Source: a virus. Taken from it: a DNA stretch of 23,657 nt. The notes below the pieces were generated by a model. It did not search any database and had not been told where the DNA came from. It saw nothing but the letters and a program-made list of their open reading frames with translations. The position numbers and the translations under genes were made by a program. This document shows, one piece after another, positions 7,201 through 20,447 of this stretch. The stretch lies in IMG/VR virus record IMGVR_UViG_3300035162_003484, positions 1 through 23,657 of that record; one strand, given 5' to 3'. Position 1 is the first letter of the stretch. Every line of letters starts with the position of its first letter.

Positions 7201-7997
7201 GCTCCAGTGGTGTCCTGCGTCACCTCCAGTTGGTTGGCAGCGTTGCGTACCACCACGCCGTACTGTGTATCGAGCACACCGGACGTGAACTTAACCAGTC
7301 GTCCTCGGTGCGCGTCTACACCCATAGCGCCATCGGCGTCGGTCAAGACTAGGCCAACGGAGGCACTACTGGCCCCCACGCTAGTGATGGTGCGAGACAG
7401 CGCGACCGTCGGCTCGTCTCCCTCAACCGTGATTAGGTTGAGGTCGTGCAGGTTAATCCCACCAGCGTTGTACGGACCCGCGCCCTGGAGTCGAATCGTC
7501 CGTGCGCTGGTCGGCGAAGCTGCGCAAGCCTGAAAAGCCCGCTTGAATGTAGCATAGGGCAGCAGCGTAGTACCGACGCCCGTAGCGTCAGAGCCAGTCG
7601 CAGCATTGACGTAAATCGTAGCGGCAGCGTTACCTGTGTCGAACTCCGGGCGTTCGGTGTCTGCTAAGTAGTCGTACAGCGCGGGCAACGTAGACGCCGC
7701 CTCAAAGACCGCTACAACAGGCGTGAACTTCTGCGCCGCGTCCAAGTTGGTCCGCGCAACTGCGGGAGTGCTGGCGGCGGTGCCGCCTTCTGCGACGGGA
7801 ACGGGGAGGGTAGACACTAGGCGCGCGTCGTCTCCCTCTGTGATCGTGCCGGCCGTCGCGCCATAGGTGGGAGCCAGATTCGCATCGGTATTAGTGCCGA
7901 TATTGGCGATCCCATCGGTGCCGACGACCGTGTTGGTGTCGCCGCCGCCGGCCGCTGATGCGCCCGCACCATAAAAGTTGGTCGGGTAGAAGCTCAT
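4299..7997 (-). CDS. Tail fibre or tailspike with two beta-helix regions (1232 aa)
   Basis: This is the largest protein here and starts by ATGA overlap with the upstream gene. The N-terminus (about 1-90) is Gly/Ala/Thr-rich, consistent with virion attachment, and holds a tail-fibre-type repeat GGTAASTPAVARTNLDA at 71-87. Two segments carry the entry motif of right-handed parallel beta-helix, pectate-lyase-like proteins. The first is TIYVNAATGSDATG...LPYATFKRA, about 127-154. The second is TLWVDADFGDDGTA...LPFLTVGAAI, about 539-569, followed by DVIHVRPGVYAESG (about 575-588). Each is trailed by many short hydrophobic strands with Asn/Gly turns. The C-terminal ~350 residues look like beta-sandwich material with no repeats. 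The likely role is receptor binding, perhaps with polysaccharide-degrading activity; no catalytic residues can be assigned. Confidence 0.85.
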   Translation of the reverse strand: MSFYPTNFYGAGASAAGGGDTNTVVGTDGIANIGTNTDANLAPTYGATAGTITEGDDARLVSTLPVPVAEGGTAASTPAVARTNLDAAQKFTPVVAVFEAASTLPALYDYLADTERPEFDTGNAAATIYVNAATGSDATGVGTTLLPYATFKRAFQACAASPTSARTIRLQGAGPYNAGGINLHDLNLITVEGDEPTVALSRTITSVGASSASVGLVLTDADGAMGVDAHRGRLVKFTSGVLDTQYGVVVRNAANQLEVTQDTTGATFLVPSIGDTYDILTDWVTTWDFPDRNDYVIESSSGSTFKHVRFIGTPKYLFINDTDKLDFIRCRFEITGLLAGRGGSIFLSTCSLANAGETFSDWGMLTTITEGVTLLQNGTFIDAVNAAANKSFISALTVGMIETRGEIAYRDLGTKGILIRGSGIIALNARRGSIFNLWRFVDCAAGILANDAGEGWGWAPMDLPTIHGNITGAYTLTATGGARARLGAGSTVTDATGTASVSADDGATNTAQNPDGTYIEGGFPAPAGFAPVGVATGNTLWVDADFGDDGTAVSDRQDLPFLTVGAAITASLSGDVIHVRPGVYAESGLTMTAGTVINGESWQTTSIGSAAATANILTMGTDCGVNGITVIVPTAAHAGISHTAGTGSVTGINIQGDGATGIGDGIHKTGTGKLIGGLIRCETGGLNSYVRVSAGVLALDDVHCPQSAGTIASVILAEGGTWQCQGLNVGNTNVVDAIQLAGTATIRVYSPNIFNCSNAVHLTADGPNVTIIGGKISATLRTVWVDPALTGTGSTVRCLGTVLDPLFDFPPAAAVNTEFVLQFNQQESNTRDSRQRLIGADLALGFPELGSAAWIGKGAPYSSGISVYTTDGTETMVGSVVTGGNQTDVTAEAGSRSASTFAFQALTANNAIYFGSLRKDAASVPLKFWGLMLNQVAAGVGGTYAHEIWDGAAWVQVGIMAVSMAEQYRYADSVYLRAASQEMVHFGITASTTWGQSTVGAIASYHARIRILTTVTTAPTWERSRLMESAAVINQTGQRSANGLAKWSKVVSAAGLQWSGSGQGNGSVTMGTGGVTWNHELDKGLLRANGNDAYLQLSLPQGICTAHPLTFRVLYGYQVYAAAPDLQLDTQRVEVARNIVADPGDVVVPIERTIATTALTTAAAGTRYSWTGDVLAVEQVTRHTTAPLDISGFYEGDMVAMRLTLVDDNGGTDVLIYGLEIEGVQFTDGTIE

Positions 7998-8395
7998 GAC
8001 GTGAGATTCCAGGTGAGCCGGGCGATCGCGTTGGCGGTCCCGGCGTTTGTCTTGGCAAAGATAAACACCGAACCGCCGACCCCTACAGAATACCGCTGAT
8101 AGAGTTTTCCGAGAATCTCAACCACGGCGCCATCGGTTGCCGTGGTGGTACCGGGCACAATGGTCGTCGTTATTTCGTTTGTCAGTGGCACGTCTCCCGC
8201 CGCATCGGCGGCGACAAGCCAAGTGATCGAGGTGGCGCCGCCCGCGATGGTGTCGAGCTGGAGGTGCGCGTCTTCGAGGTAGCAACCGTCAGGCACCTCT
8301 ACCGCTTGGGCTTCGCCGCTTGTGGTGCCGGTGCATTCAAGCGCGGCATAGCTAGTCGATAGGGCCGTTGAGGCGGCGGCGGATATCTGGGCCAT
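7994..8395 (-). CDS. Small beta-rich virion protein, first gene of adhesion block
   Basis: GAGG precedes the ATG at 8395 by 7 nt. The 133-aa protein has an Ala/Ser/Thr-rich N-terminus (MAQISAAASTALSTSYAALE) and then repeated hydrophobic strands (ATSITWLVAADAAGDVPLTN, ITTTIVPGTTT, SVGVGGSVFIFAKTNAG), consistent with a jelly-roll or Ig-like fold. It is the first gene after the 143-bp gap that carries the promoter and leader repeat, and it overlaps the fibre gene by 4 bp, so it is likely made together with the fibre. It may be a fibre connector, chaperone or decoration protein; no family is recognised. Confidence 0.65.
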   Translation of the reverse strand: MAQISAAASTALSTSYAALECTGTTSGEAQAVEVPDGCYLEDAHLQLDTIAGGATSITWLVAADAAGDVPLTNEITTTIVPGTTTATDGAVVEILGKLYQRYSVGVGGSVFIFAKTNAGTANAIARLTWNLTS

Positions 8396-8416
8396 GGGAC
8401 AACCTCGGATGGTGGG

Positions 8417-8456
8417 TCATCGGGTTCGGCTGTTACGGGTGCGACCCTCGATGGTG
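8417..8456 (-). repeat. Conserved leader repeat, copy 2 (upstream of adhesion block)
   Basis: A 28-bp core at 8429-8456 matches 19802-19829 at 27 of 28 positions. A second shared hexamer TCATCG (plus strand, 8417-8422) sits exactly 6 nt away in both copies. On the minus strand it starts 5 nt after the TAGCAT -10-like element and ends 33 nt before the first base of the ATG at 8395. As RNA, CATCG at one end can pair with CGATG at the other. The inner GGGT-CGC-ACCC can also pair; the single mismatch between copies keeps a stem here. Confidence 0.85.
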
Positions 8457-8461
8457 GTTGG

Positions 8462-8470
8462 ATGCTATCA
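8462..8470 (-). promoter_or_regulatory. Probable extended -10 promoter for the adhesion block
   Basis: On the minus strand the sequence is TGATAGCAT, which fits the TGN-TAnnnT extended -10 pattern. It lies in the 143-bp intergenic gap and directly before the conserved leader, so transcription would start at about the first bases of the leader. No convincing -35 hexamer is found 17-19 nt upstream. Support comes mainly from the matching arrangement before the capsid gene. Confidence 0.5.
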
Positions 8471-8538
8471 CGGATTCGAGCCCACCGCACCTCGGGCGAA
8501 TCCATGGGGCGACCTTGAGCCGTTCGTGCCTTTGCCGG

Positions 8539-10179
8539 CTAGTCAGTTTTCCGGCTTGTCTTGAATGGGTCGTCCAAGATAACGAGGTCTAGATATACCT
8601 GGGTTGTCGAAGTTAGGCGCTCGACCACCAAGGCAAGCACCGCGTCGACGTACATCTCGGGATCGGTCAGCCGAACGACGGCGCCCGGTTCGAGCCCTTC
8701 GAGCTGGCCCATGGGTCCGCCATACCTGACCATCCTCTTTTGGGTGGCGTATCTCAAGGCCATGTAGTCTAGCGACAGGGCGATCGATGCGTCATCCCAA
8801 CAGCTTGAGTTCGTGCCGGTCCACTCCCGCGGGCCGTTGTATGCGTAGGACCACCGGCAAAGCGGATCGGCAAAGAACCGCACGTCCTCAAATGTCGTCG
8901 TGTTCCACGGGAGCGAAGTCATCCCGAGCACACCCCACCCGGATTCGTGGCGCCCGTATTCTGGACCGAGCACCCGCCGCGAACCATACGCGGTGCCGTC
9001 GCGTTGTGGTCGGTATTGGATGGTGAGTAAGTTTCGGATCTCGTCGTCGTATTGCGTCTCATCGGACGCCCGCGCAACCATGCCGGGGCGCAAGTGCGCT
9101 ACCACGTCAGAGTCGACGGCATCCCAGCGCATCGGCGCGTAATAGATGCCACGCGGGCCGTTCACTCGGATAACCGGGATATGGGCCAGCACTTCAGAGT
9201 CGAGCCAATCGAGCATGTTTATCGTCTGGTTAATTACAGCGTCAACTTGCCAGCGATTGAGCCAAGCCGCCGCGCCGATGACGGCCGCGGTGTCAACGTC
9301 AAGCGTGGTGCATTCCTCAAGTACCCATCGGATGACGTCGCCAGCGCCTCGAAGGTATCCGCCGCCGTATGGGTTGAGCCGCCCGCCGCCATAGACGCCG
9401 GCGTTGCCGAAGCCGACCCACCACTCAAGGTCTACATCAGAAGCCGATAGCGGCGGGTTCTGGATGACCGATACGCGGCGGCCAAGGGCGTCGGTCGTAA
9501 GTGTGACCGGCTTGTCTAATGACGTGCCGAAGTTCAGCGCATCGTAGAGCGGGACCGAGGTGGCGGCGATGTGTCCGTCTGCTATGACCATTTGGCCAGC
9601 GGTGGTCGCCGTCGATTTGTACTCCGCATAGATTGCGGGCGATGCCATCTCGGGGCGATAGGTCGTGCCCGCCTTCGGATGGTGGCCAGGTATGCCAATC
9701 ACTAGCGGGTATGGCTTCCCCTGGTTTTTGTCGACGATGATATTCGCCGCCGTAACTGGCCACGTCTCATCTTCGACCACTGCTTGAGCGAGCGGGAACT
9801 CGAACGCCTGATCGCTGGCGTTCTCTCGGATCGTCAGGGTAAGCGGTTCGCCAATTGTGCCGTGCTTCGGTGAGGTCGTGCGACCGCGCAGATACACGCG
9901 GGCCGTCTCGAGCACGTCGCCCTCGACGTAGAATCTAACGGTGGCTTGCTGATTGCGTAGCGTGGCACCCCTGGCCTTGACCGCGAACCAGTCCACCGAC
10001 GACGCGACCACAACAGACTCGGAACGCTCGCCAGACTGCGAAGCCGACCCGAGCGTGAGCTCATTAAGCCCACCCGAGTATTGGATGGTCGAGCCATCGG
10101 CCAAAGCCACCACGGTCGCCGACGTTGCGAACCGGTAAACCACGCCGCCCGCCGTAAAGTCGAGAAGCCACACCGCCAT
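8539..10179 (-). CDS. Tail hub/tip (baseplate-like) protein (546 aa)
   Basis: It starts by TAATG overlap with the Asp-box tail protein. The N-terminal third is beta-rich (MAVWLLDFTAGGVVYRFATS..., SERSESVV-type strands to about residue 110). A central part has a Gly-rich loop (GVYGGGRLNPYGGGYLRGAG) followed by DVIRWVLEE and a helix-rich MLDWLDSEVLAHIPVI segment with GPRGIYYAPMRWD. The C-terminal ~100 residues again look like a beta-domain (YGGPMGQLEGLEPGAVVRL...). Place after the tape measure and size suit a distal-tail or hub component that closes the tube and carries the fibres. The GAGDVIRWVLEE-type core recalls phage tail hub proteins, but family assignment is by context. It ends just before the promoter-bearing gap. 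Confidence 0.65.
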   Translation of the reverse strand: MAVWLLDFTAGGVVYRFATSATVVALADGSTIQYSGGLNELTLGSASQSGERSESVVVASSVDWFAVKARGATLRNQQATVRFYVEGDVLETARVYLRGRTTSPKHGTIGEPLTLTIRENASDQAFEFPLAQAVVEDETWPVTAANIIVDKNQGKPYPLVIGIPGHHPKAGTTYRPEMASPAIYAEYKSTATTAGQMVIADGHIAATSVPLYDALNFGTSLDKPVTLTTDALGRRVSVIQNPPLSASDVDLEWWVGFGNAGVYGGGRLNPYGGGYLRGAGDVIRWVLEECTTLDVDTAAVIGAAAWLNRWQVDAVINQTINMLDWLDSEVLAHIPVIRVNGPRGIYYAPMRWDAVDSDVVAHLRPGMVARASDETQYDDEIRNLLTIQYRPQRDGTAYGSRRVLGPEYGRHESGWGVLGMTSLPWNTTTFEDVRFFADPLCRWSYAYNGPREWTGTNSSCWDDASIALSLDYMALRYATQKRMVRYGGPMGQLEGLEPGAVVRLTDPEMYVDAVLALVVERLTSTTQVYLDLVILDDPFKTSRKTD

Positions 10180-13100
10180 TAGACAAGCTCCTTAAACTGC
10201 AAGCCGCCTATCCGGTTCGTCTCATCGATGCCGAGGTCGCCGTTGTGGTTGTCGATGCGCGCGGTGCCAGTCATATGGCCATACAGGAACAGAGACGGAT
10301 CGGTCACGATGGCGCCGCTAGTCTCTGGGATTGACTCGACGTAGACCACCGGCAACGCCCCGGAGTCGGTCGCCCTGAACAAACCTTGTATGAGCTGGCC
10401 CACGTCATTAAACGCCGCCAGAGGAACGCCAGCGGTGCCCGCTACATATTCTAGGTCAGTACCCGCCCGAATGTCGACGAGCTCCGTAACGTCAGACAGG
10501 GGAGCCGAGAAGGTGCGCGCCGGTGTGCTGCGCTGTCGAGCGTGGCGAGTGCCAGCGGCGTCGACGGTTACGTCGAGGCTGGGCATAAGCTCGTCAGAGT
10601 ATCCCCAGCCGGGTCGAACTCCGAACGGCTGAACGCGGCACACTAGCATAGCCCCGGCTTCGTAATAGCCCTCGCCGGTCGGCGTCTGTTTGCCGATGCT
10701 ACCGGCGGGGATGCGAAGCCTCAGATACCTCTTGCGACCTGAAGATGCGGGATGGATGACCACGAAGCCCGCGGTGTGGTTGAGGTTGAGAGTCCTGGTA
10801 TTCCCGGCGCTGTTGAGCACGCCATCGGCCAAGCCGGTCGCGGTCGCAAGTGTGAGCACCGGGTGGACCGTGGTTTCATTGGTCCACGATCCGGCACTCT
10901 GAACGGTGAGTCGGTGAGCTTCCGAAGCCGCCCCAACTTGTCCGTCTAGATATGCCCACGCGCCCCGAAGCTCGGAGTCCCATAAGAAGCGCGCCGGGGT
11001 TGAGGTTGTCGCCGTGTTGACGATGACCGAACGGCCGGCGAGATCGTGAGCCAACCCGGTAAAACCATCAGCAAGGTCGAGCTCGGCAAGATTCACCCAA
11101 GCCGCGCCGGTCCAAACGTCTAAAAAGAGCTTCCTGAAGTTCGCGTTAGCTACATAGAGTGCGAGGCTATTGCCGATCCAAGTATCCGCGCCGAGGTCGT
11201 ACACGATGAGCTGTTCGGCGGTGTCCGTAGATCGCCACGTCTGCGCGGGGCTCGGGCTTTGCACCGGGTCAATATGTTCGATGCCGTAGTCGTGAGTAGC
11301 GGCGATCGTCCAAGAGTCGCCGACCCGAGCTGGCCCAGCGGTCATCGATAGCCACGCCACAGAGTCACCGCTTCCCATATCTGGGATCGGCTCGGGGTTG
11401 GCTGTCCAGGGCTTACTAAGCACCGACGCACCGCTAAGGAACTTAAGCCGCCCGGATACAGACGCGGCGACGTTGACCATGCGCCAATGGCTCACGGTAG
11501 CCGATGACGCCAGCTTGCCCCATCCGATGAGCCCGCCGGCTTTGGGTGTGGCGGCGTCATCGGTGAGAACGAGGTCGGCCGTCGCGTTCCATATCGTTTC
11601 GCCTATGTCTTTGTCCCATACCTCGACGGCTCCCTGATTCATCAGGATACGAAGATGAAACGGGTTCACCGTGGTGTTGCGGGTCGCTGTCGCCCCGGTC
11701 GCCGAGTGCGTATCGTTGACCACTATCCCGGTTGAATGGATGATTACCTCGACCTCATAATCATAGACGCCGTTGGCTATCCTGATTGCCACCGCACAGT
11801 CTCGCTGACTCGATAGGCCCGCGCTGATCAAGCGGACGACCACATCTATCGCCACTTCGGTGCTACTGATTGCAAGGGTGCTGTAAGAGGTCGCGACCGT
11901 GGCGGGTATCTTGAGCTCGCCCGGTGTCACGATCGTCGGAGCCGTTCCCACTGCGGTCCAGCCGGCGGCGGCGGGGAGCTCGATCGGTATCCAGATTAGA
12001 CCGGGATCGAAGCCCGCGCCGCTGGTGCTATACGCCCGCCTCTGGTCTGGGTTCGCGGGGTTAGGCGCACCGAGCACGGTTACAGTCGTGTCGGCGCCCA
12101 TGGTTACGTTGGAGTGCCCGCCGTAGACCATTAGCCCGGTCATGTAGTCGTTGGGCACCGAGGTAGACGCGGAGACGTGCAAGACCAATAGCCGACCCAT
12201 GGCCCAAGTCGAAGCGAACTGGTTAAGCCGCAAGGCCACGTCTCCGAGCTCATACGGCTCTTGTGCCCAGGTGGTCCAAGTCGCGCCTCGATCGGCGCTG
12301 GTGTAGATGTAGCCCTTGTTTAGATTAGACGCGAAGACGTAGATCTTCCCGGCTTGGTCAACGGAGGTGGTCTGGTATTGGCGGGTTGATGCTGTCACCT
12401 CGACCGGGGTTTGAATCGTGATCTCTTCCCAAGCACTAGACAAGACCCGAGCCTTAAGCGCACCCGGTCGCGTGGTGCCGTCGATGTAGGTCACCACAAC
12501 GCCATAGGCGGTTGCGTTCACGTCGACGTCGAGCCCATCGGTGGGCGTGGCGACAACTTGAAACGACGCCCCGAGATCGGCGCTGGCGAACTGTCGCCAA
12601 GTGCCCGCGGTGGCGGTGTCCTCGATCGCCATGATAATCGAGCCGCGATAGATTGCCACCCGGGTGCGCCCGTAGTTCGTCGTCGCCGCGGCGGTAATGC
12701 TATCTGACCAGATATTCCAGGTTGCCCCGAGGTCTTCGGAATAGTAAGCCGTCCCGCCAAAGAAGAGCAAGACACGCTCTGATTCCGGTAGCACCAAGAG
12801 CGCCGGATTATTCCAATTGTTGGCGGCGGCGATGGTGCCCTGTGTAGTGACCCCGAGCGCCTTAGATACGCTGTAAGTCTTGAGCCCGACGTTATCGTCG
12901 AAGTCTGCGATAATAGTCGTTTGAGTCGATGGTATGGTCACCGCGTCATAAGACCGGGCCGTTACTGACCCGGCGTCGTAGTCGATCGGGTGCCAATCGC
13001 ATAGGAGCTGGGTGCCATCCCAGCCGCGCCACTTGGTTACCGCGTCACCGGTCTGCCTGACTAAGAACGCGGCGCCGGTGCCGGGGTTGCCCGGTGCGCG

Positions 13101-13316
13101 GGCCTCGACCTCGAAGTCGACACCTTGAGCGCCGGACACCTCGACCCGGGCGATGGTGAGCGGGTCGACCACGATGGCTTGACCGGGGCGCGGTCCTGCT
13201 TCGGTGTAGCTGCTATCGGTGGTCAATGCTCCACCGGTGCCGACGGGTTCGAGGTCGGCGTTGAATAGTTGCGGGATGAGTATCCCGCCCGGTAGTGTTG
13301 CGCGCTTGGTTGCCAT
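10179..13316 (-). CDS. Large tail protein with Asp-box (sialidase-type BNR) repeats
   Basis: This 1045-aa protein starts by TAATG overlap with the tape measure. It contains three Asp-box motifs (SxDxGxTW): SEDLGATW at about 193-200, SADLGASF at about 245-252 and SADRGATW at about 340-347. Each follows a hydrophobic strand, which is the spacing of a beta-propeller as in sialidases and related glycan-binding proteins. The remaining ~650 residues are beta-rich with no membrane or coiled-coil parts (WNATADLVLTDDAATPKAGG, and DIRAGTDLEYVAGTAGVPLA towards the C-terminus). Position directly after the tape measure is that of a distal-tail or tip protein, so this may join tip structure to carbohydrate recognition. 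No sialidase catalytic set (Arg triad, Tyr) can be assigned, so binding is likelier than hydrolysis. Confidence 0.75.
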   Translation of the reverse strand: MATKRATLPGGILIPQLFNADLEPVGTGGALTTDSSYTEAGPRPGQAIVVDPLTIARVEVSGAQGVDFEVEARAPGNPGTGAAFLVRQTGDAVTKWRGWDGTQLLCDWHPIDYDAGSVTARSYDAVTIPSTQTTIIADFDDNVGLKTYSVSKALGVTTQGTIAAANNWNNPALLVLPESERVLLFFGGTAYYSEDLGATWNIWSDSITAAATTNYGRTRVAIYRGSIIMAIEDTATAGTWRQFASADLGASFQVVATPTDGLDVDVNATAYGVVVTYIDGTTRPGALKARVLSSAWEEITIQTPVEVTASTRQYQTTSVDQAGKIYVFASNLNKGYIYTSADRGATWTTWAQEPYELGDVALRLNQFASTWAMGRLLVLHVSASTSVPNDYMTGLMVYGGHSNVTMGADTTVTVLGAPNPANPDQRRAYSTSGAGFDPGLIWIPIELPAAAGWTAVGTAPTIVTPGELKIPATVATSYSTLAISSTEVAIDVVVRLISAGLSSQRDCAVAIRIANGVYDYEVEVIIHSTGIVVNDTHSATGATATRNTTVNPFHLRILMNQGAVEVWDKDIGETIWNATADLVLTDDAATPKAGGLIGWGKLASSATVSHWRMVNVAASVSGRLKFLSGASVLSKPWTANPEPIPDMGSGDSVAWLSMTAGPARVGDSWTIAATHDYGIEHIDPVQSPSPAQTWRSTDTAEQLIVYDLGADTWIGNSLALYVANANFRKLFLDVWTGAAWVNLAELDLADGFTGLAHDLAGRSVIVNTATTSTPARFLWDSELRGAWAYLDGQVGAASEAHRLTVQSAGSWTNETTVHPVLTLATATGLADGVLNSAGNTRTLNLNHTAGFVVIHPASSGRKRYLRLRIPAGSIGKQTPTGEGYYEAGAMLVCRVQPFGVRPGWGYSDELMPSLDVTVDAAGTRHARQRSTPARTFSAPLSDVTELVDIRAGTDLEYVAGTAGVPLAAFNDVGQLIQGLFRATDSGALPVVYVESIPETSGAIVTDPSLFLYGHMTGTARIDNHNGDLGIDETNRIGGLQFKELV

Positions 13317-15328
13317 TATCCCCGTCCGTATGAAGTCCCGCGGCCCGCGCCTTGGTTGAGTCTTAGCTCGGCTACTATCGCACGCTTGACGCTCGGAGTC
13401 GCTACCGCGGCGGCGAGTGTTTGCCCGTCCAGCACTAGAGTAACATTCAGAGACCCGCCGAAGCCGCCGCCAGCGTTGAGCGATTCGAGCCCATCGGCGC
13501 CGAGCGCGTCCATACCTCGAGCGGATACAATGCCCTCCCGTGGGTCCGCCTGGATTGTAACGTGGTCGGAGGTTGAGCCCTCACCGAACGCACGCCCGAC
13601 GACACCGCCAGCGGCGAAGCTCGGCGGGCTCTGTTGATTGATCGTGGCAACCTGAAGACCGAGCGCCGTGGCGGCGGCGGCGGCGGCTCCAACCGGGGCG
13701 AATGGACCCATGAACGAAAAAGCGGGGATCATCGTTAGGGCGGCCACACCCGCGGAGATGGTCGCCTCTGCTAGTGCGGCGGCCTGGGATGCCTTAAAGC
13801 TCTTCAGCGAAGCCTTGCGGGCTGTTGCTGCACGCTCGGCGTCGGCTTTGCCCTTGGTGTGGTTGCCGGCGGCGTGAGCCTTGGCTGATTGCTCGGCCCA
13901 ATGTATCGCCTGCTCTGCGGCGTTCTCGCTGGCAACGCTGGCAACTCCGCCGAGATCGCCCAAGAGCCCAGCGGTTGCCGCCCCGGCTTGAGCGACGTCC
14001 GCCTTAAACTCTTCCTGTTTCTTTTTACTTGCCGCCGTGGCGGCCTCGCTAAGTGCGGCGATGTATCCCATCTCGACAGCGAATTGAGATTGTGCGATCT
14101 CGGCGGCGCTGACACCAGCGGCGGCGAGCTCGCCGAGCCTACTCATGCGCTCATCATAGAGCGCGTTGATCTTGCCCACCTCATCCAGCTCGACACCGCG
14201 CGCGGCCTCGGTGATTCCGTCGAGTTCCATAGACAGCGCGGCGAACTCCCGGATATTCGCGCCGGCTTCTTTGCCGCGGGCCTCTTCGGCTTTGAGTCCG
14301 GCTTCCATAGCCCGGCCAATCTGATCGAGTAGGCGGACTTCATCGGCGAGTGCTTGAAGGTGTGCTCGGTGCGCCTTCTCGGCGTCGGCTTTGCCCTTGG
14401 CGATCCGCTTGTCATCGGCGGCGATTGACTTTGCGGCGGCGCTGGCGGCGGCGGCTAGTTCGTCGTTTCCTTTCTTCAGCTTCGCCTTGCCGTCGATTGC
14501 GCGCCGGACCCCTTCGTCATCGATGAGCCTTTCATGTAGTCCATCGAGCCCGCCAACCAAGGCCCACGTCGACGCGGTAGTGGCGAGCATTGCTTTACCG
14601 AAAGGTACCGTCGCAACGCCAGCGGCAACAAAGGCCCCACCCAAAGCTGTGAGCTCTGGCATGAACTTCTCGACCACGTCGGTGAGCTTAATCACCGCCA
14701 TCGCCCCGACTTCGACCGATTGCGAGAACTCCGTCGACAGCACGACGCCGACCCGTTGAGCCGCGATAGATATCCCGTCCATGGCGGCGGCGGCGTCTTC
14801 GATGCTGGCCAGCTCTTCGTCGGTGATGAGATCCCCGGCGGCGCCGGCCTCTTCGAGTATCTTGACCCACTCCGCCGAGTTAGATACCAAGCTCACGATT
14901 GCAGAACCGGCGGCCACCGCGCCCGCGGCCACACCGACCACGGCTAACGCTGTCACCGCCGCCGCGGCTCCCATCGGACCAAGCGCAGAACCGGCCTCAA
15001 GAATCGATCGGCTGAACGCTTCGACCTGTCCACCGGCGGCACCGATAGAACCGCCGGCGCCCGTCGCTGCTTGCTTGAGCGCTTCGAAGCCCGCCTTGGC
15101 TTTACCCTTGAGCGCCGCCGATTCTTTGCTTAACTTCTTAGCCTGTTCGACGGCTTTCTTGGTCTCACGGTCCACCTTGCGCGCTTGCTTCTCTGACTTT
15201 TTGAGCGCGGCGGTCCATTGGTTAAGCGCCTTCTCGGCGGCCTTGGCGGATTCCTTGGGAAGCTCGCGCATCTTTTTCCGCATATCGGAAATGTCAAGCT
15301 TAAGCTGCATGTTAATGGTATCAGCCAT
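13316..15328 (-). CDS. Tail tape measure protein (670 aa)
   Basis: It sets tail length by spanning the tube and leaves with the DNA. GAGG lies 6 nt before the ATG at 15328, and the start overlaps the previous gene by 8 bp. The N-terminus is a charged coiled coil (about 15-90, rich in Lys/Glu/Ala). Hydrophobic spans follow at about 118-148 (LGPMGAAAAVTALAVVGVAA) and 228-245, then long helical stretches, then a hydrophobic region at about 521-562 (TISAGVAALTMIPAFSFMGP). The C-terminal part, SFAAGGVVGRAFGEG and REGIVSARGMDALGADGLES, is typical of tape measures. By the usual ~0.15 nm per residue the tail would be about 100 nm. The segment KGKADAE occurs twice (about 311 and 492). No peptidoglycan hydrolase domain is seen. 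Confidence 0.92.
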   Translation of the reverse strand: MADTINMQLKLDISDMRKKMRELPKESAKAAEKALNQWTAALKKSEKQARKVDRETKKAVEQAKKLSKESAALKGKAKAGFEALKQAATGAGGSIGAAGGQVEAFSRSILEAGSALGPMGAAAAVTALAVVGVAAGAVAAGSAIVSLVSNSAEWVKILEEAGAAGDLITDEELASIEDAAAAMDGISIAAQRVGVVLSTEFSQSVEVGAMAVIKLTDVVEKFMPELTALGGAFVAAGVATVPFGKAMLATTASTWALVGGLDGLHERLIDDEGVRRAIDGKAKLKKGNDELAAAASAAAKSIAADDKRIAKGKADAEKAHRAHLQALADEVRLLDQIGRAMEAGLKAEEARGKEAGANIREFAALSMELDGITEAARGVELDEVGKINALYDERMSRLGELAAAGVSAAEIAQSQFAVEMGYIAALSEAATAASKKKQEEFKADVAQAGAATAGLLGDLGGVASVASENAAEQAIHWAEQSAKAHAAGNHTKGKADAERAATARKASLKSFKASQAAALAEATISAGVAALTMIPAFSFMGPFAPVGAAAAAATALGLQVATINQQSPPSFAAGGVVGRAFGEGSTSDHVTIQADPREGIVSARGMDALGADGLESLNAGGGFGGSLNVTLVLDGQTLAAAVATPSVKRAIVAELRLNQGAGRGTSYGRG

Positions 15329-15800
15329 CGGAAGCCTCGGCGATTGCGGCGATCACCAATTTTGGGAACCGGGTGTTTAGTTTGCCCATCGGCTTCCTTA
15401 GCAATTCAACAAAGACCGACAGCCCGGCCAGCTCGTTCGCTTTGATGAACTTTGCGTAACTCACGTTATTCCAAACCCGCCCGACGATAAGCGTGGCGCC
15501 GTTGTCGATCCGTACCTCCCATTTTAAGCCCTCGGCGCTTTCGGGCTCGGTTCGACGTAGAATAAAAGGCGTCTTATTCATCCTCTGATATCGTGAGGCT
15601 TTTCGGCTTCTAGACGAATTGTATAGGAAAGCTCCCGGCTTCGGCCATGCGTCATATGCGTTAACATATACCTCTTCGATTTCCTCTTCCATTAACGCGA
15701 CGACGAGCGCGGCATTCTTGCCGATGAACTGTTCGATAAACTGCGTATCTGACCCGCTTATGGTTACGCCCGTTTTAGAGTTACCTATTTTTATCGCCAT
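15321..15800 (-). CDS. Unassigned tail-region protein (159 aa)
   Basis: A clean GGAGG sits 7 nt before the ATG at 15800, which lies inside the frameshifted end of the chaperone GT. The protein begins MAIKIGNSKTGVTISGSDTQ, has a helix rich in Glu and hydrophobics (ALVVALMEEEIEEVYVNAYD), then a basic loop (NSSRSRKASRYQRMNKTPF) and a C-terminal part with RVWNNVSYAKFIKANELAG and a final helix KLVIAAIAEA. The SYAKFI segment faintly recalls HK97 gp10-type tail-completion proteins (YA near an aromatic), but the order (between GT and the tape measure) is not usual for them. The DNA at about 15560-15800 is visibly AT-richer than its neighbours. Function unknown. Confidence 0.7.
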   Translation of the reverse strand: MAIKIGNSKTGVTISGSDTQFIEQFIGKNAALVVALMEEEIEEVYVNAYDAWPKPGAFLYNSSRSRKASRYQRMNKTPFILRRTEPESAEGLKWEVRIDNGATLIVGRVWNNVSYAKFIKANELAGLSVFVELLRKPMGKLNTRFPKLVIAAIAEASDG

Positions 15801-16244
15801 GCTTGAGCCTCCAGAATGCGATGAGCCTTGCTTGATCTTCTCTGGCGAGTGTGTCCCACCAAGACGGACCGTGCCCAGCTTGGAGGCAAAGGTCGATTAC
15901 GATGTACTCGCGGAGCCCCCCGGGGCCTCGGAGTTTCCCATTGCGGTCGCTTCCTCTTCGTCAGTAGGTAGCCCGGCGCTAATCAGCCCGACTGCCTCGA
16001 CGGCGAGTTCGTTGAGCCTTGACCAACTCATCCCGCTGTCGAGAAGCTTGTCGAATACGGCGGTGCCATAGTCGGCGGCCTTGCCGGTCTTCCAGCGGAC
16101 ACCGGGAGCACCAGCACCGCGCCAACAAACCCCGAGCGCGGCGGCGCCCGCGATCGATGGTGAGCCAGATAGCAGCTCGGCGATCTGAACGCGAACCGCC
16201 ATCGACGACGGCGCTTTGAGCTTGATTTCTTTTGAGTAGTCCAT
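15781..16244 (-). CDS. Tail assembly chaperone GT, by -1 frameshift
   Basis: The product uses the G start at 16244, slips -1 at 15933-15939 (or 15915-15921), and ends at the TAA at 15781-15783, giving 154 aa. The extension in the -1 frame reads ...LREYIVIDLCLQAGH, then SWWDTLAREDQARLIAFWRL, then KHGDKNR. It has the Trp-Trp-Asp...Glu-Asp-Gln-Ala-Arg-Leu...Trp pattern of known GT (T-domain) extensions and lacks its own start. In lambda-type phages G and GT together bind the tape measure and recruit tail tube subunits; a fixed G:GT ratio is needed. Seen: open frame, slippery sites and T-like sequence; the slippage itself is inferred. Confidence 0.8.
15897..16244 (-). CDS. Tail assembly chaperone G (115 aa)
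   Basis: AAGGAAGG precedes the ATG at 16244, fixing this start over upstream in-frame codons that lie inside the tube protein gene. The protein (MDYSKEIKLKAPSSMAVRVQ...) is mostly helical with a hydrophobic mid-part (IAGAAALGVCWRGAG) and a helix KLLDSGMSWSRLNELAVEAV, then an acidic linker LPTDEEEATAMGNSEAPGG. It stops at TAA 15897-15899. Position between the tube protein and the tape measure and the frameshift into a T-domain identify it. G is the non-shifted, more abundant form of the assembly chaperone and is not part of the finished virion. Confidence 0.85.
   Translation of the reverse strand: MDYSKEIKLKAPSSMAVRVQIAELLSGSPSIAGAAALGVCWRGAGAPGVRWKTGKAADYGTAVFDKLLDSGMSWSRLNELAVEAVGLISAGLPTDEEEATAMGNSEAPGGSASTS
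15915..15939 (-). promoter_or_regulatory. Programmed -1 frameshift region with two slippery heptamers
   Basis: On the minus strand the zero frame reads ATG-GGA-AAC, giving the heptamer G-GGA-AAC (15933-15939), which differs from the lambda G/T site GGGAAAG only in the last base. Eighteen bases further on, CCG-GGG-GGC gives G-GGG-GGC (15915-15921). Both are in the correct X-XXY-YYZ phase and both lead into the same -1 frame, which stays open to 15781. The first is the likelier site, because its tRNAs re-pair better after slipping. The stretch between and after them is very GC-rich and could form a stimulatory structure. Confidence 0.75.
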
Positions 16245-16266
16245 GGTCCCTTCCTTGGGTTTTGGA

Positions 16267-16794
16267 TTAGTTAGTCTTTTCGACCTGAGCAATGTCGCCA
16301 GTAATCGCGCCGTAAACAATGCCCGACACCGAGATGGTATCTGTTTCGCCCTCGGCAAAGTTCGCCGTGATTCGCACGTCTTCAAGTGTGAAGGTGTGGT
16401 CGGCGTCGTCACCGAACTCGGCGGCGGCGGCAATGGTATAGGTCCACGTAGTCGTGTAGGGGCGACCGGTGCCACTGGTAGACACTGCGGCGGCGTATTC
16501 GCTACCACTGGTCCGCATGATAAAGTCAGTCAGCGTTCCCGACGTGGCGTCGGTAAACTGGGCGACCTTCGCCGTGAATGAGAAGGTCGGATAGATTCGA
16601 GCACCATAAGACAGCCCGCAAAGATTGCCTTTGCGCTCGGCGGCCACGATCTCGCGCAGACCCTCGACAAGACCATCGATCGAGAAGTCGCCGTTATCGA
16701 ATGTCGCGGTGTAGCTCAACGGGGTTACGGCGGTTGCATCGATGGCGCTCAAGGCTCCCATCATCATAGTCTTGACGTATGTCGATTTTGCCAT
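16267..16794 (-). CDS. Major tail (tube) protein (175 aa)
   Basis: AGAGG lies 6 nt before the ATG at 16794. The protein is beta-rich with few Lys and no membrane part. Its strands YTATFDNGDFSIDGLVEGLR, YPTFSFTAKVAQF and TFTLEDVRITANFAEGETDT, then ISVSGIVYGAI, match the pattern of siphovirus tube proteins, in which the last strand pair with a Phe-Ala-Glu-Gly turn closes the sandwich. It forms stacked hexamer rings around the tape measure. Location just before the chaperone pair and after the terminator-like gene fits. The length is typical for a simple tube subunit with no added Ig domain. Confidence 0.85.
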   Translation of the reverse strand: MAKSTYVKTMMMGALSAIDATAVTPLSYTATFDNGDFSIDGLVEGLREIVAAERKGNLCGLSYGARIYPTFSFTAKVAQFTDATSGTLTDFIMRTSGSEYAAAVSTSGTGRPYTTTWTYTIAAAAEFGDDADHTFTLEDVRITANFAEGETDTISVSGIVYGAITGDIAQVEKTN

Positions 16795-16803
16795 CTTGGG
16801 CCT

Positions 16804-17235
16804 CTAGGTCATGGGGTAGTTGTGCCACGCGTGCGCGGTAATGGTGCCAAGTAGGTAAGTCCCATCGGCTATTGCGGCTCGGCCTATGCCGGTGATCGTG
16901 TTCGACGGCCCGCTATCGCCAACGGCAAAGCGAAGAGCCTTGACAAGCTTCGCCTCTTCGATTAGTGCGAGGTCGTAGTCGTCGCGCCCGTCGGACGCTC
17001 TTAGCAGGTAGGACCACCGGACCACAACTAGCTCGGACACCGGCATACCGATAGCCTTCTGGCGACCCTCGGCGAGCTCAACGCCCGGCAACCCCACGCT
17101 GAAGTGCTTGTGCGATATGGGGCGGGCCGCGAACGCCGGAAAGCGTGAGGGTACTCCCGAGAACTCGGCCCACCCGGGAAGCGCAGCCAATGCGGCGGCG
17201 ATGCGTTGGCGGACTAGTTGGGGCGCAAGTGACAT
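16804..17235 (-). CDS. Tail terminator/head-tail joining protein (143 aa)
   Basis: The start chosen is the ATG at 17235 (MSLAPQLVRQRIAAALAALP), overlapping the upstream stop as TAATG; the TTG at 17244 would be the alternative. The core ELVVVRWSYLLRASDGRDDY followed by DLALIEEAKLVKAL has the strand-then-helix pattern (Arg-Trp-x-Tyr-x-Leu-Arg then Asp-Tyr-Asp-x-Ala-Leu) seen in phage tail terminator or neck proteins of about 140 aa. Such proteins cap the tube and join it to the head. Order adaptor, terminator, tube supports it. A head-closure (stopper) role is the main alternative. Confidence 0.65.
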   Translation of the reverse strand: MSLAPQLVRQRIAAALAALPGWAEFSGVPSRFPAFAARPISHKHFSVGLPGVELAEGRQKAIGMPVSELVVVRWSYLLRASDGRDDYDLALIEEAKLVKALRFAVGDSGPSNTITGIGRAAIADGTYLLGTITAHAWHNYPMT

Positions 17236-17954
17236 TAGAGCCAAACCACCGAGTGAGCCAAGCCGATCCTGTCGTCGTTATCTGGGTCGCCATCGCCGTC
17301 GCGGTCCATTAGAGCATCGGCGGACTTGTACGCCTTCTCATATCGGTCCATGTACTTGGCGGCCTGACCCTCGAACGCTGCATCGTTGCGCGTCTCGAGG
17401 TCCTCGAAGATGATCGCGAGCGTGAGCCACACCGTCGCGGCGCGAAGGCTTGACGGTGAGCGAATCCACTCGGGGCGGCGGCCGTCTTGGAATAGCCGGT
17501 TCTCAATGTCGACCCAGGCTTCGTCGAGCTGGTCTTGGTAGTTGGTCGCCAAGGTCAGCGGGCTCGGGCCGTTCGGGTCAAGCGCTGGAACCTTGCGGTA
17601 CAAGTCGGCATCGGTCACGACGTTGTAGAGCATACGCTTAACGAGCGCCCCGTCGTTCTCCGCCACAAGGGGCTTAGCGGCCACTGTGAGCGACCAGACA
17701 ACCCGCCAACCGGCACCGATGGTAGAACCCGCGACAGTAGCCGTCAGGACCGGGTACGTCGCCACCGATGCCACGATGGTAACGGCGGCCGCGTTGACAA
17801 GCACCACGTTGTCGGCGTCATAAATGGTGACGGTGCCAACACTCGGCGCCACTAGCGCACCAGCCAGATAGACCGGAGCCTCAAGCGTGGTGTCTTGGCC
17901 CTGCACTATCGAGTGAGGAACCGTAAAGCGCACGGTGTGGCGTTGGTCGCTCAT
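17235..17954 (-). CDS. Head-tail adaptor with N-terminal Ig-like part
   Basis: This 239-aa protein starts in ATGA overlap with the 48-aa ORF. Residues about 1-95 are beta-rich (TVPHSIVQGQDTTLEAPVYL, VGTVTIYDADNVVLVNAAAV, GWRVVWSLTVAAK), like a small Ig or carbohydrate-binding sandwich. Residues about 110-212 are helical (LATNYQDQLDEAWVDIENRL, AATVWLTLAIIFEDLETRND, KYMDRYEKAYKSA) and resemble the helical bundle of adaptor (gp6/gp15-type) connector proteins that bind the portal. At 217-228 the run DRDGDGDPDNDD is an EF-hand/dockerin-like calcium loop. Adaptor assignment rests on helix pattern and position; the fused Ig-like part and Asp loop are unusual. Confidence 0.65.
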   Translation of the reverse strand: MSDQRHTVRFTVPHSIVQGQDTTLEAPVYLAGALVAPSVGTVTIYDADNVVLVNAAAVTIVASVATYPVLTATVAGSTIGAGWRVVWSLTVAAKPLVAENDGALVKRMLYNVVTDADLYRKVPALDPNGPSPLTLATNYQDQLDEAWVDIENRLFQDGRRPEWIRSPSSLRAATVWLTLAIIFEDLETRNDAAFEGQAAKYMDRYEKAYKSADALMDRDGDGDPDNDDRIGLAHSVVWL

Positions 17955-18097
17955 TTCTGCGAGCGCCTACGGTCATCGGCGGGGCGGTCCCGCTCGCAGC
18001 GCTTGAGCGACTCGACAGCTTTGGCGCGTGCCGCGGCGGGCGAGTGCCCGGCCTCGACAAGTACCTTGGCCATACGGTCGCGAACTTCGTGGCTCAT
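17951..18097 (-). CDS. 48-aa basic ORF between capsid-region gene and adaptor
   Basis: It has ATGA overlaps at both ends (starting at 18097, ending at TGA 17951-17953), so the frame is locked between its neighbours. The product MSHEVRDRMAKVLVEAGHSP... is helical with an Ala/Lys core (AAARAKAVESLKRCE) and a very basic end (RRRSQK). There is no recognised family. A 147-bp stretch that couples exactly to both flanking genes is unlikely to be non-coding. It may be a small head or neck accessory protein or a translational relay. Confidence 0.65.
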   Translation of the reverse strand: MSHEVRDRMAKVLVEAGHSPAAARAKAVESLKRCERDRPADDRRRSQK

Positions 18098-18744
18098 TTG
18101 GCCGCCTTGCGTTTACGAGCCACCGGCTTGGGTGGAGCGGGTACCAGCTCGGCGGCGATGGATGCTAAGAACACCTCGCACGCTTTGATATTGCTCTTGA
18201 GTGCGCGGAGCTCACCTGCTTCGCTTCGGTTGTCTCGATCGATGAGCACGTCGGCGGCGGCCTGTAGCTCTGCCATCAGCCCTTCGACGATGTAATCGTG
18301 CGGCGGGGTTACCTTGCCGTCGGCCATAAGCGCCCCGAGCCACTCGGCGTAGGCCTTCGAGCCGTCGCCGATAATGTCGGAGCCGTAGTGGACCACCTCG
18401 TGTTGGTCGAGCCACACGGCCGCGCCGACGTGGTTGTAACGCTTCACAGCGTAACTAGTGCCCGGCCCGTCGACGTCAGGCTCCAAAAGGAACCAACCAC
18501 GCTTGCGGCGCTCCTGAACGGCGGCGGATACGTCGCCGGTCGGGGTGACCAGATTAACACCGGGCTCAATGATTAGCTTCGCCAGCGATGGCAAGACTTG
18601 ACCGTGCATCACCGCCACCCGGTCGGGCCGATGGAAGTACAGGAAACGAGACGCCGACGGCACCTTGATAGCCGGCTTCGGCGTTGGTGCGGTGTATATA
18701 TCGGTGTGCGGCTCAATGCCTGCGACGCTGGTAATCTTAGCCAT
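18094..18744 (-). CDS. Hypothetical protein downstream of major capsid gene (216 aa)
   Basis: The start chosen is the ATG at 18744 (MAKITSVAGIEPHTDIYTAP), preceded by AAGGAAG at about 8-nt spacing; a start at 18777 is possible but has no site. The first half is mixed alpha/beta (SRFLYFHRPDRVAVMHGQVL, KLIIEPGVNLVTPTGDVSAA) and the second half helical (EGLMAELQAAADVLIDRDNR, ALKSNIKACEVFLASIAAEL). It ends in a Pro/Lys-rich tail (PKPVARKRKAAK). No family is recognised. Being directly after the capsid gene it may be a head accessory or completion protein, but no decoration-protein signature is seen. Confidence 0.7.
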   Translation of the reverse strand: MAKITSVAGIEPHTDIYTAPTPKPAIKVPSASRFLYFHRPDRVAVMHGQVLPSLAKLIIEPGVNLVTPTGDVSAAVQERRKRGWFLLEPDVDGPGTSYAVKRYNHVGAAVWLDQHEVVHYGSDIIGDGSKAYAEWLGALMADGKVTPPHDYIVEGLMAELQAAADVLIDRDNRSEAGELRALKSNIKACEVFLASIAAELVPAPPKPVARKRKAAK

Positions 18745-18797
18745 GGGTGGAACTTCCTTAAGAACGTGAAGAGGCATTGGCCCTAAGACGGTGGCCC

Positions 18798-18821
18798 AAG
18801 GAAGGGGAGAACCCCCACCCT
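18798..18821 (-). terminator. Strong hairpin after the capsid gene (attenuator-like)
   Basis: On the minus strand AGGGTGGGGG (18812-18821) pairs with CCCCTTCCTT (18798-18807) around a TTCT loop, with one T-T mismatch and two wobble pairs. It lies 17 nt after the capsid stop codon. There is no run of T after the stem, so it does not look like a full intrinsic terminator. It might protect the capsid mRNA 3' end or partly reduce transcription of later genes. Confidence 0.4.
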
Positions 18822-18838
18822 AGGACCAAAGCCAAAGA

Positions 18839-19759
18839 CTATGCGTCGGAGATGATGGACACACCAGCAAGATCGATGAGCTCGGAGACGCCCATGTATG
18901 CGCTGGTAACAACTTTCTTCTGGTCAGAAGAGGCGTCGTATTCCATCGCTACCAGGGTTTTGCCCGCGATGAGCGCGTCTGCGGAGCTGTCGATAATCGG
19001 TGTGGCATCGGCCCAACCGATAGCGCCTTTGCCGAACACCCCACCGGCGCGGTCAGCGCCGCCGCCCGAAGTCGGCACTTGTGCAGATACGAACACGTCG
19101 GCGCCGTAGATTTGGCCCTTATACGAATTTCCGCGCACGCTGATTTGTTCGGGCGTAGCAGCGTTATAAGCGAAGACGGTTCCACTTTCAGCGCGCAGCG
19201 CCGTTTGAAGATCCTGCCATTGGACCGGATGAAGCACGGCCATTTTATCGCCCTGCACGTTGGCCAGCTCCAAAGCGGACAGCGCGTCGAAGTATTGGGC
19301 CAAAGTGAGGTTAACGCCTGTACTTCCCTTGATGGTAGCGAAGCCACCGACGAGCGCGGCGATTAGGTTCGTCATCGTCATTCCAGCAGACATAACGGAG
19401 TCTTGAGCCCAGAAGGCCGGATTGTTGAACATGCCGAGCGAGTCGGTGATGCTGGCGAGTCCGGTGACTTGGTACTGCTTCGAGTAGCGGGCGACCGTTA
19501 CTTGGTGGCTCGCATCGACGAGAGCGGTGTTCGCGGGGCTTGCCGACTCGGCGGTGCTGGCGAGCTGGGTGGCGCCGTCCCAAGCGATTTCGCTGGTCTT
19601 GATGACGGTCGAGCCGGTCATGGTGGCGTCACCGACATAGAGCAACGCGGGATGGTTCTGAAGCACGTTGCGATCGGCAAGTGCGAGCAATACCTCGCGG
19701 TTAAGGGTTTCCGCTAAGCGGAGGTCACCAAGACCGGAGTATTTGATTTCGTTCGCCAT
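18839..19759 (-). CDS. Major capsid protein, HK97-like fold (306 aa)
   Basis: GAGG lies 8 nt before the ATG at 19759. The protein begins MANEIKYSGLGDLRLAETLN and has the hallmarks of capsid subunits: a spine-helix region (FDALSALELANVQGDKMAVL followed by HPVQWQDLQTALRAESG), a segment YKGQIYGADVFVSAQVPTSG, and GGVFGKGAIGWADATPIID towards the P-domain end. About 300 aa is a usual length for a mature-size subunit with no fused scaffold. It follows the scaffold gene and is preceded by its own promoter-like element and a leader shared with the adhesion block, which suits the high copy number needed. No cleavage-protease gene is seen near it. The family (HK97-fold) is inferred from sequence style and synteny. 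Confidence 0.88.
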   Translation of the reverse strand: MANEIKYSGLGDLRLAETLNREVLLALADRNVLQNHPALLYVGDATMTGSTVIKTSEIAWDGATQLASTAESASPANTALVDASHQVTVARYSKQYQVTGLASITDSLGMFNNPAFWAQDSVMSAGMTMTNLIAALVGGFATIKGSTGVNLTLAQYFDALSALELANVQGDKMAVLHPVQWQDLQTALRAESGTVFAYNAATPEQISVRGNSYKGQIYGADVFVSAQVPTSGGGADRAGGVFGKGAIGWADATPIIDSSADALIAGKTLVAMEYDASSDQKKVVTSAYMGVSELIDLAGVSIISDA

Positions 19760-19789
19760 TGGGCATACCTCGTAGGGCGTAAGGGGTTG

Positions 19790-19829
19790 TCATCGTCCTA
19801 CGCTGTTACGGTTGCGACCCTCGATGGTG
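19790..19829 (-). repeat. Conserved leader repeat, copy 1 (upstream of capsid gene)
   Basis: The 28-bp core at 19802-19829 matches 8429-8456 except for one base, and TCATCG (plus strand, 19790-19795) lies 6 nt from it as in the other copy. On the minus strand the core begins 4 nt after the TAGGGT -10-like element and ends 42 nt before the first base of the ATG at 19759. A further stem CGTAGG/CCTACG (plus-strand positions about 19771-19801) ends directly before the Shine-Dalgarno GAGG, so leader structure could affect capsid translation. Confidence 0.85.
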
Positions 19830-19833
19830 AATC

Positions 19834-19864
19834 ACCCTAGCACGTTACCGGCGAGTCCTGCCAA
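19834..19864 (-). promoter_or_regulatory. Probable promoter of the capsid gene
   Basis: On the minus strand TTGGCA (19859-19864) is followed after 19 nt by TAGGGT (19834-19839), with TGC directly before it, so the -10 is of extended TGN type. The -35-like hexamer lies in the last codons of the scaffold gene. The 19-nt spacer is long, but an extended -10 can compensate. A second extended -10 with the same position relative to the leader repeat occurs at 8462-8470. Inference from sequence only. Confidence 0.55.
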
Positions 19865-20447
19865 ACCCCGGAAGAGTTTTTCGGTATTCGGCGTATTGAG
19901 CGTCGGGCATGCTGCGGATCTGTTCGGCGCTTAGCTCACCGTTCGGCGGCACCGGAGGCACCACGCCTGCATTGGTGTCGGGCAACCTCGGAGCACCGGG
20001 CACCACGGGCGCCACGGGCGCAACTGGGGCGGCTTGGTTGGCGAATAGGTGCCCCAAGCCCTTGGGCGCGTTGTCGGCGCTAAGAGTCGCCGCCCACTCG
20101 GCGATCGGCGTAGAGCTCCCGCTCTTGCCGTGGTAGAACTCGGCGAGCTCCCGGTCGTCGGCGGCGGTGAACCCGGCGCTCACCATGCCCTCAAGCGTGG
20201 AGTACTTGGCGGCGGCATCGGCGGCGAAGCTATCGTACTTGGCCTGAAGCGTGGCGTGCGCCTCGGTGAGTGCGCCCATACCTTCGAGTGAGGTATTGGC
20301 GGCGGCAAGTGCAGTCGCGGCGGCATCGGCGCGCACCTTCTCCGATGCCGTGGCGGCCTCGGCGGCCTTGACCCGCTGGGTGAGCGCGGAGACGCGCACG
20401 GCTACGCCATCGTTGCGGTCGACCTCTGGGCTATCGTCTGTTGACAT
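19845..20447 (-). CDS. Capsid scaffold protein (200 aa)
   Basis: AGGAAGG lies a few bases before the ATG at 20447, just after the portal stop. The protein has an Asp-rich start (MSTDDSPEVDRNDGVAVRVS), an Ala/Glu-rich coiled coil (about 20-90), a flexible Pro/Ala/Val linker (QAAPVAPVAPVVPGAP), and a C-terminal helical segment with a basic end (EQIRSMPDAQYAEYRKTLPG then RTRR). A charged coiled coil followed by a linker and a basic C-terminal helix-turn-helix that binds capsid protein is the scaffold pattern. Position between portal and capsid genes fits. No Ser-protease motif is visible, so scaffold removal without a maturation protease, or an unseen protease, is implied. Confidence 0.85.
   Translation of the reverse strand: MSTDDSPEVDRNDGVAVRVSALTQRVKAAEAATASEKVRADAAATALAAANTSLEGMGALTEAHATLQAKYDSFAADAAAKYSTLEGMVSAGFTAADDRELAEFYHGKSGSSTPIAEWAATLSADNAPKGLGHLFANQAAPVAPVAPVVPGAPRLPDTNAGVVPPVPPNGELSAEQIRSMPDAQYAEYRKTLPGFGRTRR

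Follow-up and report, generated by a model that had tools for sequence, protein, structure and literature searches.

The window, the whole stretch of 23,657 bases of a viral record analysed here, encodes on its minus strand a major capsid protein of 306 residues (18839–19759). The protein matches a PHROG major head family, and its AlphaFold2 model (pLDDT 78.7) matches solved HK97-type capsids in a Foldseek search. Upstream is a gene in the scaffold position (19845–20447, minus strand), assigned by synteny with the related locus L007. The stretch between the two genes contains copy A of a repeat whose 28-base core, CACCATCGAGGGTCGCAMCCGTAACAGC, occurs on the minus strand at 19802–19829 and, as copy B, at 8429–8456. 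The two cores are identical at 27 of 28 positions, as described in the initial annotation, and the number of such matches expected by chance is 0 in 100 dinucleotide-preserving shuffles of the window. A second motif, TCATCG on the plus strand and CGATGA on the minus strand, had been reported at an equal distance of 6 nt in both copies and is found there. Over the whole 41-nt repeat the copies are 85% identical, and the 23,657-base record contains no third copy of the element.

Copy B precedes two genes on the minus strand. The first, behind a Shine-Dalgarno-like GAGG (8403–8406), encodes a protein of 133 residues (7994–8395) that has no confident family and for which single-sequence structure prediction was uninformative (pLDDT 45). 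The second encodes 1232 residues (4299–7997) and gives a weak tail-protein match, phrog_4577 (E 0.007). The gene block may, on weak evidence, be tail- or adhesion-like. The copies had been assigned to the two largest minus-strand gaps. Both do lie in gaps, of 85 and 143 nt, but larger or similar gaps exist (217 nt at 2375–2591, 139 nt at 17955–18093, and one of 96 nt), some of them containing short ORFs, and these sizes depend on the ORF set used in the present analysis. The largest gap also holds a perfect 43-nt direct repeat (2486–2528 and 2540–2582, 54 nt apart), which would encode a repeated AQLRGLFASVIHEG peptide.

The RNA element of copy A (19791–19826, minus strand) scores 42.2 bits with our covariance model R1. 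It is bounded by helix P1, whose 5' strand CAUCG (19822–19826) and 3' strand CGAUG (19791–19795) are assigned by covariation, as is the enclosed hairpin P2, AGGG-UCGCA-ACCG (19809–19821). The pairing of CATCG with CGATG, and that of GGT with ACC or GGGT with ACCC, had been noted as possible, and both can indeed form. The GCG at 19801–19803 is a possible pseudoknot partner of the loop CGC, with weak support, and the Shine-Dalgarno-like GAGG of the capsid gene is at 19768–19771. Copy B is also full length (8418–8453, minus strand; 39.8 bits), with AGCC replacing AGCG. Upstream, the extended −10-like sequences TGC-TAGGGT (hexamer at 19834–19839) and TGA-TAGCAT (hexamer at 8462–8467) end 4 and 5 nt before the core, in agreement with the initial annotation. 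Most relatives have TAGNNT at an equal distance. Copy A is accompanied by a −35-like TTGGCA (19859–19864), where relatives have TTGACG or TTGACA, and the consensus scan gave no good −35 for copy B.

Searches by sequence and by terminase revealed the element in approximately 55 viral contigs of 44–71% GC. It lies shortly before the HK97-type major capsid gene, or before a scaffold gene heading a scaffold-capsid block, which bears out the proposal that it marks the capsid gene. A first near relative, L003, was obtained by an exact-pattern scan of viral contigs. Its element has no differences in 41 nt, and 3 of the 80 nt from the −10 to the ATG differ, compared with 105 of 600 nt in the capsid gene, mostly at third codon positions. 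A shorter pattern gave L007–L009, whose terminase, portal and capsid are 38, 34 and 34% identical to those of the window phage. Their DNA shows no BLASTN alignment with the window, and the element again separates the scaffold-position gene from the capsid gene. The capsid proteins of the carriers match PHROG major head families and are as little as 19% identical, and despite this divergence the leaders keep the closing helix P1, the hairpin P2 with the loop UCGCN, and AAMAGCG. That the fold is constant while the capsids diverge to this extent points to a strong shared reason to control capsid synthesis.

Twenty-one loci were fetched by terminase alignment, the element not being used in their selection, and the pre-capsid regions again contain it in most cases (L015–L017, L019–L023, L025–L027, L029 and L031, with a variant in L028). 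The variant leader of L028 (3935–4000) carries an additional hairpin, placed after P2 and before the ACGCG strand, and resembles a three-way junction. A looser pattern for the hairpin and the joining strand yielded 100 stretches, which were then scored by the covariance model; a capsid or scaffold gene follows each of the 42 model hits at E ≤ 0.0046 in this purely sequence-based scan. The pattern search pre-selected its loci for the hairpin and joining letters, and the terminase-fetched loci were free of this selection. The element is a member of a widespread structured RNA leader and not the regulon box of one phage. A convincing copy before the capsid gene was not found in the relatives L030, L032, L033, DSL-LC06 and Pelagibacter phage HTVC026P, and the terminase hits L004–L006 were set aside as unrelated phages without the element. 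The capsid, terminase, portal and flanking proteins had no close relative among 50,697 phage records. In 396 actinobacterial genomes a single match passed E 1e-5; it lies inside an ORF and is read as chance, as is the sole match of the genome-collection pattern scan, inside an ABC-transporter ORF.

P1 and P2 covary strongly across the leaders. In alignment A3, made with MAFFT from hand-cut segments, six of the nine P1 and P2 pairs are changed on both sides, and the covariation score of 0.359 compares with 0.155 ± 0.028 for shuffles and no more than 0.134 for slid controls. P1 is CAUCG/CGAUG in the window, GCCG/CGGC in L018, GUCCC/GGGAC in L118 and GGAUU/AAUCC in L080, and P2 occurs as CAGG/CCUG, CGGG/CCCG and CGUG/CACG. 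Model R1 recovers the aligned leaders. A 41-leader alignment, which was fitted to the model, contains 57 cells with double changes, compared with 18.4 ± 4.3 by shuffling. Because of this fitting, P1 was also examined without an alignment, by pairing the 12 nt preceding P2 with the 14 nt following GCG and comparing the strongest helix for own and for swapped partners. Own partners pair much better (z = 8.8, p = 2e-5, the p-value being optimistic because the leaders are related by descent; z = 7.6 for 29 representatives). The outer CATCG/CGATG pairing is thus real, covarying across about 40 leaders. The leader has a conserved structured 5' domain with covariation, as is expected of a riboswitch.

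Loop C-G-C and downstream G-C-G hardly vary among the leaders, the terminase-fetched set included, and an H-type pseudoknot between them is plausible. Two of its pairs are invariant, and one has two double changes and two violations. The double changes are in upstream tandem copies (A-U in L025a and G-U in L083a), and the third pair is broken in copy B, L025b and the phage Chenonceau. Tandem copies are found before the capsid gene in L025 (9644–9731), L083 (3532–3607) and L114 (1338–1432); the upstream copies of these sets, which carry the two double changes, are more degenerate.

Approximately 30 of 42 leaders have TANNNT at 10–19 nt before P2, most with TTGAC(G/A) further upstream, by consensus matching only. 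The spacing between −35 and −10 is 17–19 nt (17–18 nt is usual), just before P1, and TATAAT lies within the same range before P2 in L081 and L108, two carriers of lower GC. From the positions of these promoter-like hexamers, the transcript should begin at P1 or a few bases before it. A sigma-70-type promoter would thus usually put the transcript start at or just before P1. These positions support the earlier suggestion of an RNA leader that starts at or just after the predicted start site.

A second fold is predicted from the same leaders. The core strand, comprising the loop, the 3' side of P2, the A-rich strand, GCG, the linker and the 3' side of P1, is complementary to the strand from P1 to the start codon. 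Compared with dinucleotide shuffles of the downstream strand, the duplex is stronger in 26 of 36 leaders at p < 0.05 (mean z −2.95; a p-value combined over the 36 is not to be taken literally, the leaders being related). Much of the effect is lost when partners are swapped between leaders (own versus swapped z −10.1, and −10.0 for 29 representatives). The best duplex reaches the −16 to −5 region in 34 of 35 leaders. In copy A, CGUAGG (19797–19802) is paired with CCUACG (19771–19776), which abuts the Shine-Dalgarno sequence, as CCUACG(AGG). The corresponding pairings are CGCUCC...GCGUACAGG with CCUGUACGC...GGAGCG in L086, CCCGGAAC with GUUCCGGG(AG) in L070, and CCCCUGUAA with UUACAGGGG in L022. 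By the duplex-versus-shuffle test the competing pairing is absent in L071, L081, L108 and L114.

The leader therefore has, by computation and not in every case, a fold that excludes the conserved one, in the manner of a riboswitch expression platform, and it looks bistable. In structure I, P1 would close around the short GC-rich P2 with its loop UCGCN, followed by the A-rich strand and GCG, and the loop CGC could pair with GCG to give a compact H-type pseudoknot. Structure II would be a longer hairpin in which the core strand is paired with a strand adjoining or including the Shine-Dalgarno sequence, and the two structures would be mutually exclusive. The Vienna minimum-energy fold is structure II in 39 of 40 leaders, the pseudoknot energy not being counted for structure I. 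The mean number of paired Shine-Dalgarno bases is hardly different, 3.9 of 6 in the minimum-energy fold and 3.4 of 6 in structure I.

A scaffold-headed arrangement is found in Chenonceau, a temperate phage of Flavonifractor plautii (L149). Its element (26341–26375, 35.7 bits) directly precedes the annotated scaffold gene, and the complete 42-kb record contains no other convincing match. The Chenonceau P1 has 8 bp, ACAUUCUU/AGGAAUGU, and takes in the Shine-Dalgarno sequence. In both Chenonceau and L112 the Shine-Dalgarno sequence is hidden in P1 and not in structure II. The Chenonceau element comes directly after two terminator-like hairpins with T-runs (26240–26345), as though a late transcript of its own started there. 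A block running from scaffold to capsid, whose capsid belongs to a different family (PHROG 3990), is headed by the element in L112 and L048. A scaffold-decoration-capsid block is located behind the element in L144 (2145–2200, from L112) and L145 (4758–4781, from L048). L048 has no space for P1, and its Shine-Dalgarno sequence directly follows GCG. As both Chenonceau and its gut-bacterial host are named, the idea set out below is directly testable.

Computation shows the element itself, where it lies, its helices P1 and P2, and a core complementary to the ribosome-binding-site strand. Two exclusive and apparently maintained pairings at the 5' end of head-gene messages suggest a cis-acting translational switch. 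Judged from sequence, two competing shapes probably control when ribosomes make the shell protein, and translational control of capsid synthesis appears to be the best-supported reading. We consider it reasonably likely that the element is a structured RNA which acts in cis from the 5' end of phage head-gene messages, as a translational switch for the capsid gene or the scaffold-capsid block. Interconversion of the two folds would set translation, and the choice between them might depend on a ligand, on a protein of host or phage, or on the order and kinetics of folding during transcription. Structure I would be the ON state in most leaders, with the sign reversed where the Shine-Dalgarno sequence lies within P1, as in Chenonceau and L112.

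The different capsid families and the carrier GC of 44–71% would make a widespread factor likelier than one phage-specific protein. A new riboswitch-like class that senses a small molecule or a widespread host factor, and that gates capsid production in phages of very different hosts, is a tentative proposal that we hold to be possible but somewhat doubtful. Tandem copies would, if it is true, sharpen the response. A fixed folded cap that protects the most needed messages against decay from the 5' end or aids ribosome loading, with no switching, would fit an element whose predicted promoter places it at the very 5' end of the message for the most abundant virion protein. It leaves unexplained why, leader by leader, the core matches the ribosome-binding-site strand, when pairing of the two would undo the cap, and such a stabiliser or enhancer is unlikely.

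Binding of structure I by the capsid or scaffold protein, which would repress or balance its own synthesis, is one possible trigger of a switch and is suggested by the constant association with scaffold and capsid genes. However, the RNA core is near-constant across capsids with identities down to 19% and from different PHROG families, and copy B precedes other genes; an autogenous operator therefore seems quite improbable to us. The initial annotation had pointed to a pause or antitermination site. A transcription element of this sort, put-like in the second case, would act where the late transcript begins; the repeat does lie within the first transcribed bases, and the operons are long. In most carriers, however, the repeat is inside the late operon directly before the capsid gene and not at the operon start, and the alternative pairing involves the ribosome-binding-site strand, which argues for translation; we regard a transcription element as very unlikely. 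The put sites of HK022 and the nut sites of lambda are cis-acting RNA elements near phage promoters, whereas the capsid leader is found inside the late operon before the capsid gene, with its competing pairing directed at the ribosome-binding-site strand. A pair of long, nearly identical copies before late genes is reminiscent of phage-polymerase promoters, but the paired changes preserve RNA helices P1 and P2 and an ordinary sigma-70-type promoter is predicted upstream in most carriers, so that a DNA element, whether such a promoter or an operator for a DNA-binding protein, is scarcely credible. Equally improbable is a small self-cleaving ribozyme, which the compact closed fold and the few invariant unpaired letters would suit, but which matches no Rfam family, ribozymes included, and would not be expected to have a competing pairing with the ribosome-binding-site strand.

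None of the Rfam 15 covariance models matched the element, whether in the window or in 19 other loci, even at permissive thresholds. Together with the lack of a description in the open-licence literature searched, this agrees with the earlier remark that no phage element with this sequence was described, and the folded RNA leader is apparently undescribed. Candidate RNAs in viral contigs have been listed on a large scale by automated methods, and the element may be among them without a name. In the literature searched, no regulatory RNA leader was found described for any major capsid message, and to our knowledge regulatory RNAs on virion structural genes are scarcely known. The preQ1-I riboswitch is an H-type pseudoknot with the general layout that is proposed for the capsid leader. 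A compact hairpin, a loop that pairs downstream and an expression platform at the ribosome-binding site are likewise features of the SAM/SAH H-type pseudoknot riboswitches (PMC7367207). Unlike the SAM/SAH and preQ1-I riboswitches, the capsid leader has no Rfam match, contains the extra closing helix P1, and precedes head genes and not metabolic genes.

In phage T4, gp32 represses or balances its own synthesis by binding a 5' pseudoknot (PMC535899). The gene 32 operator of T4 and RB69 is a 5'-terminal folded element of about 28 nt with a pseudoknot, upstream of the ribosome-binding site, and controls translation (PMC535899). The capsid leader shares the location on a phage message. In gene 32, however, the bound protein is the gene's own single-stranded DNA-binding product and the operator diverges fast among T4-like phages (PMC535899), whereas the core of the capsid leader is near-constant across very different phages, serves head genes, and can pair instead with the ribosome-binding-site strand. 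The cyanophage manA and wcaG motifs are also phage-carried structured leader RNAs found by comparative genomics, but they precede metabolic or stress-type genes (PMC2864571); the capsid leader precedes head genes and is unrelated by Rfam search.

A regulon uniting capsid and adhesion genes, as inferred initially from the two copies, finds no support as a general rule. In relatives of up to 36 kb and in the complete 42-kb genome, every copy found precedes a capsid or scaffold gene. The related records of up to 36 kb, most of them fragments, lack a further convincing copy away from the head region, and the larger relatives carry the element singly or in tandem. A copy before a tail/adhesion-type block is found in the window only. 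The competing pairing of copy B, ACAGCC with GGUUGU, covers the ribosome-binding-site strand (p = 0.11, not significant alone). We read copy B as a putative duplication that was recruited for a second gene block in the window lineage, which would place capsid and tail-type genes under one signal. Upstream of copy B, a protein of 1045 residues (10179–13316) has a sub-threshold match to BNR/Asp-box repeats. Elsewhere in the window, a small holin-like protein (1412–1654; phrog_9987, E 6e-4) is encoded beside a possible lysis gene (819–1481).
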